From Candidatus Roizmanbacteria bacterium RIFCSPLOWO2_01_FULL_40_13 (GTDB lineage: Bacteria > Patescibacteriota > Microgenomatia > UBA1406 > GWC2-37-13): 38,262 nt of DNA. A program made the translations under genes and the position numbers. The notes below the pieces were generated by a model. It had not been told where the DNA came from and searched no databases. It saw only the letters and a program-made list of their open reading frames with translations. The DNA is taken from positions 28,624 to 66,885 of the forward strand of contig MGAN01000008.1 in NCBI GenBank assembly GCA_001789745.1. Direction: 5' to 3'. This document shows positions 5,552-38,262 of the stretch, piece by piece; position 1 is the stretch's first letter; each line of letters opens with the position of its first letter.

Positions 5552-5655
5552 TGATGCTGATCTACGGATTCCATGCGGATCACCGGATATGCAGATTGAA
5601 TATCCGTAAAATCCGAACATCCGTATCATCCGAATAAGATCCGTAATCCGCATCA
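5552..5655. repeat. CGGAT/ATCCG palindromic repeat, copy 1 (tuf-rpsJ spacer)
   Basis: The left half is rich in CGGAT (CTACGGATTCC, TGCGGATCACCGGATATG) and the right half in the complement ATCCG (ATATCCGTAAAATCCG, GATCCGTAATCCGCATCA), so the segment can fold back on itself. The outer arm even covers the tuf stop codon. A second copy with the same composition lies between argS and radA (29490-29590). Function unknown. Confidence 0.65.
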
Positions 5656-6837
5656 CTTAACGATTTTTGTCACTACTCCGGCGCCCACTGTGTGCCCGCC
5701 TTCTCTTATTGCAAATTTCAATCCTTCTTCCATAGCAACCGGGTAAATCAGTTTAGCCGAAATCTTGACGTTGTCTCCCGGCATTACCATCTCCACTCCT
5801 GATGGAAGCTTAAGCTCTCCTGTCACATCTGTCGTGCCGATATAAAACTGTGGTCTGTAACCGTTGAAAAATGGAGTATGTCGTCCACCTTCTTCTTTGG
5901 TTAAAACATAAATCTCCGCTTCAAATTCGGAGTGTGGAGTAATGCTGCCCGGCTTGGCCAATACTTGTCCGCGCTGCACATCCTCTTTTTCAATACCCCT
6001 AAGCAGCAGTCCGACATTGTCTCCTGCTCTTGTCTCATCAAGGGTTTTTCTGAACATCTCAATTCCGGTGACTACCGTTTTTTTAGTCGCTTTAAGACCT
6101 ACTATTTCTATTTCTTCGTTTACTTTTAGAGTACCCCTGCCAACTCTTCCTGTCACAACCGTCCCTCTACCTTGAATCGTAAATACATCTTCAATCGGCA
6201 TGAGGAATGGCTTATCTACATCACGTTTTGGTTCTGGTATATTTTCGTCTACGGCTTTGACTAGCTCCTCGATGCTTTTCATAGCTTCCGCATCGTCCTG
6301 CAGAGCCTTAAGAGCAGAGCCTTTGATCACGGGTATTTTATCACCCGGAAATTTATATTTGGTGAGCAGATCCCTAACCTCCATCTCAACCAGGTCCAGA
6401 AGTTCTTTATCCTGAACCATATCGGTCTTGTTGAGAAAGACAACAATTGCTGGGACGTTTACCTGCCTGGCCAATAAGATATGTTCTCTGGTTTGGGGCA
6501 TTGGTCCGTCTGGAGCGGATACTACCAGAATCGCGCCATCCATTTGGGCGGCGCCGGTAATCATATTTTTAATGTAGTCTGCGTGCCCCGGTGCATCAAT
6601 ATGGGCATAGTGTCTTTTTTCAGTTTCGTATTCGGAGTGGTGAAGATTGATGGTAACTCCCCGCGCTTTCTCTTCTGGAGCTTTATCTATCTCCTCATAC
6701 TTTAAGAATTTGGCCATTCCTTTCTTGGAAAGCACATAATGAATGGCTGAAGTTAAAGTGGTTTTTCCATGATCCACATGACCGATGGTACCAATGTTTA
6801 AATGGGGTTTGTCTCTTTTAAATACTCCGGTAGCCAT
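5653..6837 (-). CDS. tuf: Elongation factor Tu
   Basis: EF-Tu delivers aminoacyl-tRNA to the ribosome as a GTP complex. The 394-residue protein has the P-loop GHVDHGKT (residues 19-26), the switch I region with [13 protein letters not shown], the G3 motif as DAPGHADY (the usual Cys is Ala), and G4 NKTDMV. Domains 2 and 3 follow with [12 protein letters not shown] and [16 protein letters not shown], ending in [13 protein letters not shown]. Placement upstream of rpsJ matches the common str-S10 order, though rpsL, rpsG and fusA are not adjacent here; the gene beyond tuf is the divergent helicase. Confidence 0.98.
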
Positions 6838-9913: not shown

Positions 9914-9961
9914 GAGAAAAGTCTAAATCCTATTTCTGAATAAATTTAAGTATTTAAAAAT

Positions 9962-10010
9962 AACCACCCCTTTTATCCCCTCCTTGGTAAGGAGGGGAAA
10001 CAGGGGAGGA
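9962..10010. repeat. AACCACCCC...AGGGGAGGA palindromic repeat, copy 1
   Basis: An imperfect palindrome whose core is CCCCTCCTTG-GTAAGGAGGGG, flanked by AACCACCCC on the left and CAGGGGAGGA on the right. Related copies are at 24425-24470 and 36503-36552. The surrounding spacer (9914-10123) holds nothing else I can identify except the -10 box of the next gene. Confidence 0.7.
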
Positions 10011-11897: not shown

Positions 11898-12001
11898 TAT
11901 ACCCATCTTAGTTGATTTTGCAAATTGTCAACTAAAGTTATCTTATCAAATCAACTAAGGAGGGGTATATACTGATTGCGATTTCAATTAATAGAAGTAT
12001 A
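11898..12001 (+). repeat. Two-hairpin TATACCC element, copy R1
   Basis: The first hairpin (11898-11969) has near-complementary arms, TATACCCATCTTAGTTGATTT against AAATCAACTAAGGAGGGGTATA. The second (11968-12001) runs TATACTGATTG to GAAGTATA. The whole is 104 bases. Copy R2 (22858-22962) is nearly identical; R3 (25465-25568) and R4 (31596-31698, reversed) keep ends, size and two-hairpin layout but differ inside. It stops 13 bases before the ATG of the downstream glycosyltransferase. Confidence 0.8.
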
Positions 12002-22749: not shown

Positions 22750-22831
22750 TATCTAATTTCTAAATAAATCCTAAATTAATTCAAAATAACAAATATAGTC
22801 AGCGCAAAACAAAATGACCGGTTTTGATAAA

Positions 22832-22996
22832 TGTCATGCTGAACTTGTTTCAGCATCTATACCCCCTCTTAGTTAATTTTGCAAATTGTCAACTAAAGTC
22901 ATCTTATCAAATCAACTAAGGAGGGGTATATACTGATTGCGATTTCAATTAACAGAAGTATAAACAACAAGATCCTGAAATAAATTCAGGATGACA
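22832..22996. repeat. TGTCATGCTG...AGGATGACA palindrome interrupted by element R2
   Basis: Left arm TGTCATGCTGAACTTG with CAGCATC (22832-22857) and right arm GATCCTGAAATAAATTCAGG with ATGACA (22971-22996) look like the two halves of one GTCATCC-family palindrome. R2 plus about eight bases sits exactly between them, in what would be the loop. Confidence 0.65.
22858..22962 (+). repeat. Two-hairpin TATACCC element, copy R2
   Basis: 105 bases, differing from R1 at only a few positions (TATACCCCCTCTTAGTTAA on the left arm; CATC for TATC inside; AACAG for AATAG in the second hairpin). Same orientation relative to flanking genes as R1. A partial third member of this subtype begins at 38243. Confidence 0.8.
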
Positions 22997-23090
22997 AATA
23001 TGACATTTCGTATTGCTGTAACTATACTAAATTCAAAACTATCATATTTCAGATTTTTTTAGAATTTAGGATTTGGTGTTTAGAAATTTG

Positions 23091-24406: not shown

Positions 24407-24424
24407 TACGAATATTCTAATATT

Positions 24425-24470
24425 AACCACCCCTTAATCCCCTCCTTGATAAGGAGAAGAAACAGGGGAG
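24425..24470. repeat. AACCACCCC...AGGGGAG palindromic repeat, copy 2
   Basis: AACCACCCCTTAATCCCCTC, then CTTGATAAGGAG and AAGAAACAGGGGAG. It matches 9962-10010 closely; the right inner arm has decayed (GGAGAAG for GGAGGGG). Confidence 0.65.
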
Positions 24471-24527: not shown

Positions 24528-25517
24528 ATGACAATTTTAGTAACCGGTGGCGCGGGATTTATCGGATCTCATCTCTGTGAACGATTAATTAAAGAAGATT
24601 ATAATCTTATCTGCGTCGATAATTTGACCACCGGTTTAAAAATAACTCTTAATTCTTTGCTAAAAAATCCCCGATTTAAATTTATCAATCATGATGTCGT
24701 CAAACCCTTAAATATAAAAAGTAAAGTCGATGCGATTTTCCATCTCGCTTCCCCTGCTTCTCCAAATCACCATAGTAAAATCAGCTATCTTGCCCTTCCA
24801 ATGGCAACGATGTTGGTAAATACTACCGGTACTTTAAATTGCTTGGAGCTTGCTAAAAGAAATCATGCCAGGTTCTTGTTTGCGTCTACTTCGGAAGTTT
24901 ACGGAAATCCGCTCGAGCACCCTCAAAAAGAATCCTATAACGGTAATGTTTCCACAACGAGTCCCCGAGCTGTCTATGACGAAGCCAAACGCTTTGGAGA
25001 AACAATCTCCTATTATTTTTACCGAAATGAAAAGGTTGATGTTAGAATCGCTCGTATTTTTAATACCTATGGACCACGGATGCTTAAAGCAGATATGCGC
25101 ATGATCATAAAATTTGTCACACAGGCGATCAGCGGTAAGCCGCTGACTATCTACGGTAACGGCAAACAGACTAGATCGCTTTGTTACATCGATGATATGG
25201 TAGTGGGATTAATGCGATTGATGTTTTACCCAAATACCAAAGGTGAAATAATAAATTTAGGATCGGAGAAAGAAAACACAGTTCTACAATACGCACAAAT
25301 GATAATAAAACTAACCGGATCCAAAAGTAAGATCATCTTTAGTGAACCACTACCTGAAAATGATCCTTTGCAGAGAAGACCAGATATCAGCAAGGCAAAA
25401 AAATTGTTAAATTGGAAACCAAAAACCAGTCTTGAAATTGGTCTGCAAAAAATGATTAACTATATATACCCGTCTTCCTCCGATTTGCAGCTTGCCCAGC
25501 GCGAAAAAGCGGATTAG
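24528..25517 (+). CDS. UDP-glucuronate decarboxylase (UDP-xylose synthase)
   Basis: A 329-residue SDR enzyme of the UXS type, converting UDP-glucuronate to UDP-xylose. It carries VTGGAGFIGSHLCERL, HLASPASPNHH (the UXS form of this loop), ASTSEVYGNPLEHPQ, the catalytic YDEAKRFGE and NTYGPRM, then GNGKQTRSLCYIDD. It directly follows ugd, which makes its substrate. The last 18 residues (from YIYPSSSDLQ to EKAD) and the stop codon are encoded by the first hairpin of repeat R3, so the natural C-terminus was replaced or extended by the repeat. Confidence 0.88.
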   Translation: MTILVTGGAGFIGSHLCERLIKEDYNLICVDNLTTGLKITLNSLLKNPRFKFINHDVVKPLNIKSKVDAIFHLASPASPNHHSKISYLALPMATMLVNTTGTLNCLELAKRNHARFLFASTSEVYGNPLEHPQKESYNGNVSTTSPRAVYDEAKRFGETISYYFYRNEKVDVRIARIFNTYGPRMLKADMRMIIKFVTQAISGKPLTIYGNGKQTRSLCYIDDMVVGLMRLMFYPNTKGEIINLGSEKENTVLQYAQMIIKLTGSKSKIIFSEPLPENDPLQRRPDISKAKKLLNWKPKTSLEIGLQKMINYIYPSSSDLQLAQREKAD

Positions 25518-25568
25518 ACGAGTATATACTGAGTAACTCGGTTGTAAACCTTAAGTTATCGAAGTATA
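25465..25568 (+). repeat. Two-hairpin TATACCC element, copy R3 (overlaps UDP-xylose synthase end)
   Basis: 104 bases. First hairpin from TATACCCGTCTTCC to GGATTAGACGAGTATA with GCGCGAAAAAGCG near its tip; second from TATACTGAGTAACT to AGTTATCGAAGTATA. It matches R4 in reverse over nearly its whole length and shares ends, length and layout with R1/R2. It supplies the stop codon of the upstream gene and ends 14 bases before the next ATG. Confidence 0.8.
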
Positions 25569-27790: not shown

Positions 27791-29490
27791 AAGCTCGTAT
27801 TCTTAATGACCTAAAATTTGCTTTAAAAAAAATCGGTGTTGGGGAGAAAGACGTGAGTCTTGAGCGTCCGGCAAATCCTGCATTTGGCGATTATGCAACC
27901 AGTGTCGCACTTAAACTCACCAAAGCTTTCAAAAAAAGTCCTCTTCAAATTGCTGAAGAGATAAAAAATTATCTGCCTAAGGATGATTTTGTTGAAAAAG
28001 TTGAGGTGATAAAACCCGGATTTATTAACTTCTGGATTTCTCCAAACTACTATATCTCACAGCTGGATAACTATACAAAAGGAAAGTTTTCTTATCCCGA
28101 CTATCAACTTGGGAAAAATAAAAAAATCATGATCGAGTTCGCCCATCCCAATACTCACAAACTTTTCCACATCGGTCATCTGCGCAATATCTCAATCGGG
28201 GAGTCGCTCGTCAGGATTTTTGAAGTTGTCGGCAATAAAATAATTCGTTCTAATTATCAGGGAGACATTGGGTTACATATTGCAAAATGTCTTTGGTATA
28301 TAAAGCATAAGATCTCGGAAAAAGAGCTTGACAAAATAAGAAAGAAGTCTCTTCATGAAAGGATGTTGTTTTTGGGCAAAGCCTACTCCCAAGGCCAGAT
28401 CGCCTTTGATGACGAAAACTTAAAAAAAAAGATAATAGAAGTCAACGGAATGGTCTATAAAAAACAGGGCGATATAATTCCCCTTTGGAAGGAAACGGTT
28501 AAATGGAGTTTCCAATATTTCGATCAAATTTATAAAAGACTCTACTCAAAATTTGATAGGCTCTATCCGGAAAGCGAATTTGCTGACAGAGGAATAGAAA
28601 TTTGTCTGTGGGCCGAAAAAGCCGGCATTCTAAAAAGGAGCAAAGGGGCGTTGGTTTTTAAAGGTAAACCATACGGCCTTGACACTCGGGTTTTTATCAA
28701 CAGTCTGGGTTACCCAACCTATGAAGGTAAAGAGCTGGCGCTGGCAGAAAAGGAATTTTCGGAATTTGGCGAATTGGACAAATGCATTCACGTTGTTACT
28801 CCCGAACAAAAGAGTTTCTTTAAGGTTACCTTCAAAGTAGAAGAACTGCTTGATGAAAAAAAATACAAAAACAAACAGTATCATCTTGCTTACGAATGGG
28901 TAAAACTGAAGGAGGGAAAAATGTCCTCGCGAACCGGAAATGTAGTTGAAGCAGAATGGCTTATTAATCAAGTCAGAGATAAAATTTTGGCAAAATTCAA
29001 TTGTGATAAAGCAACTGCCGAAATCATTGCCATTGCTGCGGTCAAATACTCTTTTTTGAAAAACAGCGTGTTCAATCAAATCGCTTTCGATATCAACGAA
29101 TCGGTATCGCTGGAAGGCAACTCCGGACCCTATCTGCTCTACACCTATGTCCGCACCCAAAGCGTTCTAAAAAAAGCTTATCACCGTCTAGACCACGGCC
29201 GCGGATTAGATGGTATATCTAAATTTAAAAAAGAGGAAAAAGAGTTGTTCCGGTCGCTGGCCGATTTTTCCGAAGTCGTCCATGAAGCTGCCAAAAATAT
29301 GGCACCCAATTTAATCGTCAACTACTTATATGATCTGGCGCAAAAATATAATTTGTTTTACCAAAAGCACAATATCTTGGAATCGGAAGGAAAAATAAAA
29401 AACCTCCGTTTACTTTTAACGAAAGCTACAGGTGAGATGATTAAAGAGGGATTATATTTGCTGGGAATAAAAACAGTTAACAAGATGTAA
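27784..29490 (+). CDS. argS: Arginyl-tRNA synthetase
   Basis: A class I synthetase of 568 residues. The N-terminal tRNA D-loop-binding domain precedes the HIGH motif in HPNTHKLFHIGHLRN (about 118-132); the KMSKS equivalent is KMSSRTGN (about 379-386), and the DALR anticodon-binding domain closes the protein (FSEVVHEAAKNMAPNLIVNYLYDLAQKYNLFY). Between SVLKKA and EEKELFRSL, in a surface linker, lie residues encoded by the GRGLDG palindrome (YHRLDHGRGLDGISKF). A TATTAT box ends nine bases upstream of the ATG. The start overlaps an M20 peptidase relic. Confidence 0.96.
   Translation: MVKARILNDLKFALKKIGVGEKDVSLERPANPAFGDYATSVALKLTKAFKKSPLQIAEEIKNYLPKDDFVEKVEVIKPGFINFWISPNYYISQLDNYTKGKFSYPDYQLGKNKKIMIEFAHPNTHKLFHIGHLRNISIGESLVRIFEVVGNKIIRSNYQGDIGLHIAKCLWYIKHKISEKELDKIRKKSLHERMLFLGKAYSQGQIAFDDENLKKKIIEVNGMVYKKQGDIIPLWKETVKWSFQYFDQIYKRLYSKFDRLYPESEFADRGIEICLWAEKAGILKRSKGALVFKGKPYGLDTRVFINSLGYPTYEGKELALAEKEFSEFGELDKCIHVVTPEQKSFFKVTFKVEELLDEKKYKNKQYHLAYEWVKLKEGKMSSRTGNVVEAEWLINQVRDKILAKFNCDKATAEIIAIAAVKYSFLKNSVFNQIAFDINESVSLEGNSGPYLLYTYVRTQSVLKKAYHRLDHGRGLDGISKFKKEEKELFRSLADFSEVVHEAAKNMAPNLIVNYLYDLAQKYNLFYQKHNILESEGKIKNLRLLLTKATGEMIKEGLYLLGIKTVNKM
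29179..29217 (+). repeat. GRGLDG-coding palindrome inside argS
   Basis: 39 bases with imperfect inverted ends (TATCACCGTCTA / TAGATGGTATA). The core ACGGCCGCGGATTAGATGGTA matches the pepN element at 19 of 21 bases. Its right end, GCGGATTAGATGG-TATA, also resembles the end of the first hairpin in R4 (GCGGATTAGATGGGTATA). Confidence 0.75.
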
Positions 29491-29590
29491 TACGGATTGC
29501 GGATTTTATTCGGATCATGCGGATATTCGGATTTTACAGAAATTCATCCGCATATCCGTGAATCCGCATATTATCTGCAGATCCGTATCA
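29490..29590. repeat. CGGAT/ATCCG palindromic repeat, copy 2 (argS-radA spacer)
   Basis: Left half TACGGATTGCGGATTTTATT with CGGAT units, right half ATCCGCATATCCGTGAATCC and CAGATCCGTATCA; the two fold back on each other. It has the same make-up as 5552-5655. It fills the spacer between the argS stop and the radA ATG and explains an apparent upstream extension of radA. Confidence 0.65.
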
Positions 29591-31595: not shown

Positions 31596-31698
31596 TATAC
31601 TTCGATAACTCAGGTTTGCGAATGAGTTACTCGGTATATACCCATCTAATCCGCTTTTTCGCTCTGACTAGCTGCAAATCGTAAGTAAGATGGGTATA
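31596..31698 (-). repeat. Two-hairpin TATACCC element, copy R4 (reversed)
   Basis: On the minus strand: first hairpin from TATACCCATCTTAC to GATTAGATGGGTATA with GAGCGAAAAAGCG near its tip, second from TATACCGAGTAACTC to GAGTTATCGAAGTATA; 103 bases. Closely similar to R3. It lies between efp and the RodZ-like gene, both minus strand, so its orientation relative to transcription is the same as R1-R3. Confidence 0.8.
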
Positions 31699-36480: not shown

Positions 36481-36502
36481 TTTTAAATTCAAAAATTTAG
36501 AC

Positions 36503-36552
36503 AACCAACTCTTTAATCCTCTCCTTATGAAAGGAGGGGAAAAAGGGGAGGA
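36503..36552. repeat. AACCA...AGGGGAGGA palindromic repeat, copy 3
   Basis: CAACCAACTCTTTAATCCTC, then TCCTTATGAAAGGAGGGG and AAAAAGGGGAGGA. Third member of the family at 9962-10010 and 24425-24470; the left arm is the most diverged. Confidence 0.6.
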
Positions 36553-38177: not shown

Positions 38178-38262
38178 ATATAGTCAACGCAAAACAAAAT
38201 GACCGGTTTTGATAAATGTCATGCTGAACTTGTTTCAGCATCTATACCCCCTCTTAGTTGAT
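38178..38262 (+). repeat. Second copy of the composite repeat at the window edge
   Basis: These 85 bases match 22793-22877 with two mismatches: a GCAAAACAAAATGACCGG segment, the TGTCATGCTGAAC left arm and the first 20 bases of a two-hairpin TATACCC element. The element continues beyond the window. The rest of the spacer (38018-38177) holds an ATTAATTC/GAATTAAT inverted repeat and a CCCGCCTTTGGCGGG hairpin but no gene. Confidence 0.75.

Follow-up and report, generated by a model that had tools for sequence, protein, structure and literature searches.

The two-hairpin repeats in the DNA analyzed here, a window of 38,262 nucleotides (C8:28624-66885) that runs to the end of contig C8 at position 66885, are very probably IS630/Tc1-mariner MITEs, with the pneumococcal RUP element as their closest counterpart. 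This assignment, made from sequence comparisons, is drawn from element ends that match those of IS630 transposons and from empty sites that consist of TA. Each element has imperfect inverted ends of ~26 nt of the IS630 type and a TA on both sides, and the elements are present in high copy number and hold no gene. Counting against the assignment, no IS630/DDE_3 gene was found in the incomplete host genome, a flanking preference occurs on one side only, nested copies lie antisense to their hosts at fixed sites, and the right ends of one subtype, T1, fit IS630 ends more weakly.

The window contains four full copies and one partial copy, all at the positions reported in a preliminary description of this DNA. 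R1 (11898-12001, plus strand, 104 nt) is a full T1-type element recognized by reading of the sequence, by a match of 71.3 bits to the R1 model and by its fold. Its hairpin 1 spans 11898-11969 and its hairpin 2 spans 11968-12001, with the left terminal repeat at 11898-11923 and the right at 11976-12001. R2 (22858-22962, plus strand, 105 nt, 59.5 bits) is a second full T1 copy with additional C's (TATACCCCC) and hairpins at 22858-22930 and 22929-22962. R3 (25465-25568, plus strand, 104 nt, 109.2 bits) and R4 (31596-31698, minus strand, 103 nt, 111.6 bits) are full T2-type elements, with hairpins 1 and 2 at 25465-25526 and 25525-25568 in R3 and at 31698-31637 and 31638-31596 in R4. R5 (38243-38262, plus strand) is of the T1 type and is truncated by the end of contig C8 after its first 20 nt. 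The earlier division into two sequence subtypes, R1/R2 and R3/R4, was borne out by reading, and a third subtype, T3, was found outside the window in 5-6 copies in the genome. The closing motifs first proposed (TATACCC/GGGTATA for hairpin 1, TATACT/AGTATA for hairpin 2) hold for the most part, except that hairpin 1 of R3 closes with GAGTATA and hairpin 2 of R4 opens with TATACC. A sugar-nucleotide epimerase-like gene (ORF 24528-25517) also terminates within R3: positions 25465-25517 encode its final ~17 codons and stop, beyond the end of the Pfam domain. Other repeats in the window are a separate family with a CCCCTCCTT...AAGGAGGGG hairpin (9951-10008, 24413-24470 and 36492-36549) and an inverted pair of 60 nt with ATCCG-like units, 85% complementary (5597-5656 and 29487-29546).

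The host genome is Roizmanbacteria-like (Microgenomates), with 1.04 Mb in 21 contigs, and carries ~85 copies of the family in three subtypes that have one layout. Elements measure 102-107 nt and contain no transposase gene. A search of the whole genome with a centre-plus-right-end pattern returned 55 matches at 53 distinct places, which represent full T1 elements, compared with none for the reversed pattern and a chance expectation of 0 in shuffled windows. The strict T2 pattern was found 24 times genome-wide (control 0), and left ends with centres occur at 70 sites, a reading that also brought T3 to light. Copies without the second hairpin are rare: of some 85 left ends genome-wide, it is missing from only about three. 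Twelve T1 copies, each at a different place, are identical over 103 nt, which indicates a recent burst. Several contigs, including that of the window, terminate inside an element copy, and the elements probably explain some of the contig breaks in these assemblies.

The two ends of an element form one imperfect 26-nt inverted repeat of the type TATAC-N6/7-ACTC-N-GGTTTGCA, imperfect in between, as seen when left and right ends are compared across genera. The left terminal repeat reads TATACCCATCTTACTCCRGTTTGCA and the right, reversed, reads TATACTTCGATAACTCAGGTTTGCA. A DDE_3 search across the order yielded seven loci, two of which have exactly such an end beside the gene: TATACCCAACTAACTCAGGTTTGCA on the right of L179 and TATACCCATCTTACTCCAGTTTGTA on the left of L184. 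The 347-aa protein of L179 belongs to the IS630 transposase family (NCBIfam NF033545, 217.8 bits with a cut-off of 100) and contains DDE_3 and helix-turn-helix domains. Both ends are present at the related loci L178 and L180, which are near-complete elements. In a sampling of the class, the loci with a match that covers the relevant end and an identity of at least ~50% (L215-L217, L219 and L221) each have a TATAC-type (TATACNC-type) left end directly upstream of the start codon. Such an end adjoins every sufficiently close transposase relative, and no TATACNC-type ends lie beside the IS630 genes at ~25% identity (L181, L182, L222 and L223). In the genus, the left end of T2 agrees with that of L184 at 24/26 positions and the T2 right end with that of L178 at 22/26. 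Once the true element ends (21 and 22) are set aside, the highest score at any of ~76,000 window positions is 18/26. Agreement with the known IS630 ends is looser for T1 (left 17-21/26, right 13-18/26), and the exact partner of T1 is therefore probably not among the sampled transposons.

IS630 partner transposons are present in genomes G010, G083 and G089. DDE_3 and transposase searches found no IS630/DDE_3 gene in the host genome, whose assembly is 89% complete and breaks at these repeats; such a gene may lie in the missing part, may have been lost or may have acted from elsewhere. An autonomous copy beside the solo ends L122 and L149 was ruled out, as these adjoin ordinary genes and decayed remnants only. 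The substrates of an IS630-family DDE transposase are double-stranded inverted repeats, and its TA target is duplicated (PMC2170065). By the same route, a transposase supplied in trans would bind both ends of the element as duplex DNA, excise it and join it at a TA, which repair would then duplicate.

Empty sites and target duplications can be examined where one element is nested in another, since nesting provides both a filled and an empty site. TA becomes TA-element-TA in each case, a pattern in which a TA duplication and a shifted join without duplication look alike, so that empty sites cannot separate the two. T1 is inserted in T2 at CCATC-TA-ATCCG in six cases (in the host genome at L009, L010, L025, L030 and L074), T2 is inserted in the T1 centre (GGGG-TA-TATACTG) in at least nine (in the host genome at L016, L017, L033, L035, L040, L044, L046 and L052), and T1 is inserted in T1 once. 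Both the host and the inserted element vary among these composites. Without exception, nested insertions occupy one fixed TA and run antisense to the element that hosts them. At T1 insertions, the left flank favours T at -2 (29/45) and C at -1 (22/45), to which nested sites contribute part, and the right flank has no mirrored preference. A symmetric TA target would not be expected to produce a one-sided flank preference or antisense nesting at a fixed site; the uniform antisense orientation could result from the copying of ready-made composites. A longer repeat (...AAAATGACCGGTTTTGATAAATGTCATGCTGAACTTGTTTCAGCATC | AACAACAAGATCCTGAAATAAATTCAGGATGACA) surrounds R2 at 22793-22857 and 22963-22998 and recurs at 38178-38242. 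T1 occupies the same TA of this repeat in several genomic places, R2 being inserted in one of them.

The left-flank TCTA preference without a mirror on the right and the consistent orientation of nested copies would suit a non-autonomous element mobilized as single-stranded DNA by a Y1 HUH transposase (IS200/IS605 TnpA or RAYT), as would the presence of two hairpins in every element. The preliminary description had likewise suggested a hairpin-recognizing Y1/RAYT enzyme, and a search for tnpA/RAYT genes did find two Y1_Tnp genes in the genome. Movement by a Y1 enzyme is nevertheless highly improbable. The first of these genes is bracketed by CTCTAACCTCGTAGGTTAGAG and the second by AGGAACCC-AGGGTTCC hairpins, which in both cases are perfect, unlike the element hairpins and unrelated to them. 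In other genomes, four RAYTs that lie close to elements are accompanied by CCACCCGTCGGGTGG-type hairpins of their own, and the compact Y1 TnpA loci of relatives have neither element ends nor a model match. Element orientation shows no bias with GC skew, taken as a lagging-strand sign (22/51, a comparison of low power), and the ends fit an IS630 transposon instead. The broader proposal of a non-autonomous mobile element is supported, with IS630 in place of Y1 as the probable source of mobility. A TnpB/IS605 partner was rejected as no such gene is present in the genome. In the Microgenomates, the RAYT-like Y1 genes at L031, L032, L134, L148, L165 and L168 each have a palindrome of their own around them.

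The three subtypes T1, T2 and T3 have in common TATACCCRTCTTA on the left, GGGTATATACT at the centre and GTATA on the right, and their inner stems differ. On folding, hairpin 1 (~60 nt) and hairpin 2 (~30-44 nt) are adjacent with the central TA in common (TA-hp1-TA-hp2-TA), and the two hairpins of an element arise as each terminal repeat pairs with an arm in its interior. Across 30 diverse hairpin-1 sequences, 91.6% of cells are paired in the named structure, and stem 2 (TCCG/CGGA, CCAG/GTGG-type, GCTG/CAGC, CTCA/TGAT-type) is 97.6% paired and has four doubly changed pairs. Doubly changed cells number 53 in hairpin 1; column shuffles give 14.3, and sliding the partner by 1-3 columns gives 6-15. 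Hairpin 2 has 18, compared with 8.8. Because the shuffles ignore the relatedness of copies, these figures are strong but are not probabilities. Both hairpins thus covary well above the controls, and the compensatory changes found in each across genera uphold the original observation that structure is kept while sequence changes. Conservation of the 5' arm of hairpin 1 is expected in any case, since this arm doubles as the terminal repeat; the 3' arm lies outside the repeat and follows by pairing. Certain imperfections of hairpin 1 are also kept across genera, namely a TAC/TT internal loop, an R-G mismatch beside TTT/AAA and a GCA/GAA loop. Insertions into the fold were observed as well: L133 and L135, from two genomes of the genus, carry an inserted short double repeat of the TTCACCCTGAA type at an identical position in the 3' arm of hairpin 1, and a T3 copy on the minus strand of L096, from about 1837, holds in hairpin 2 an insert of ~190 nt with more GC-rich hairpins (GAAGCTCCGCCGACTATGGTCGGCGG...).

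It is quite possible, if short of probable, that the folded molecule and not the ends alone is maintained by natural selection across Microgenomates genera. On this view, a transposase or a host factor would recognize, in RNA or single-stranded DNA, the structure formed by the paired arms together with the conserved mismatches in hairpin 1. The fold might benefit either the element or its host; it could, for instance, render a transcribed insertion harmless or keep the palindromes imperfect and stable. Long palindromes get corrected from their own arms, and with IS630-type mobility unchanged, the complementarity of the arms could come from hairpin-templated repair or gene conversion between arms instead of selection on the fold. 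Hybrid T1a/T1b sequences indicate that copies do recombine. This origin of the pairing is possible but doubtful, as arm copying should remove mismatches, yet the TAC/TT, R-G and GCA/GAA imperfections persist in hairpin 1 across genera. Selection against perfect palindromes could explain part of their retention.

Bacterial MITEs give strongly folded transcripts. The main role of the present elements could be that of a regulatory or processing signal in a transcript, such as an RNase III target or an attenuator, with mobility secondary. Their location is consistent with such a role: 64 of the 68 copies examined are intergenic, none of the 68 lies inside an ORF (threshold of at least 120 aa), and R1-R3 sit between co-directed genes. 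There is also a precedent in the NEMIS MITEs of Neisseria, the transcripts of which are proposed RNase III substrates (PMC2229807). A primary role as an RNA signal is rather unlikely, however, given that the adjoining genes are unrelated to each other (sugar-nucleotide enzymes, EF-P and genes of unknown function), that the hairpins of R2-R4 have no listed terminator-type site, and that the window gave no Rfam match above the gathering score.

The distribution of the family was determined with a covariance model built on 16 copies and then run on genomes of the order and phylum. Members occur in 17 of 83 genomes and 12 of 43 genera of the order, and in 3 further genomes among 379 sampled across the phylum. 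Named relatives with members are Candidatus Roizmanbacteria and Gottesmanbacteria, with one match in WWE3; viral contigs contained no exact match to the T2-type pattern. In the literature searched, such elements are undescribed in these bacteria, which reflects its restricted coverage as much as true absence. With defined ends, a partner transposon type and dozens of diverged copies in many genera, the family makes the question of selection on the fold directly testable, and the compensatory changes fall in arms outside the terminal repeats. It also adds a MITE system to the Candidate Phyla Radiation, bacteria in which such elements might be expected to be scarce given the small genomes.

Among known systems, the elements most resemble RUP of Streptococcus pneumoniae, which is 107 bp long, has ~108 intergenic copies with IS630-Spn1-like ends and inserts at TA (PMC2229807). 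The likeness extends to the IS630 link, TA targeting, intergenic location, length and number of copies. In RUP, the two terminal repeats pair with each other (PMC3049150), whereas in the present elements each end pairs with an internal arm to give two hairpins, and this fold is common to several sequence subtypes across genera. The same folding back of terminal repeats onto internal arms, as two conserved hairpins, sets the family apart from typical MITEs. ISY100, of the IS630/Tc1-mariner group, has 24-bp imperfect inverted repeats and a duplicated TA target (PMC2170065); it is comparable in its repeats and TA, and the transposases of L178-L184 belong to the same family, but an autonomous IS630 element has a transposase and R1-R5 consist of ends and two folded arms only. 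The CIR repeats of Caulobacter and Brucella have a similar two-armed layout, with two long arms and a linker and no single end-to-end stem (PMC2229807), but they have GANTC in the loop, a motif absent from R1 and R3 by reading, and no clear terminal repeats. REP/REPIN-RAYT systems consist of short palindromic repeats in pairs, at high copy number and in intergenic positions (PMC3116915), and differ from the present elements in size, ends, target and linked enzyme; in these genomes, RAYTs have hairpins of their own.
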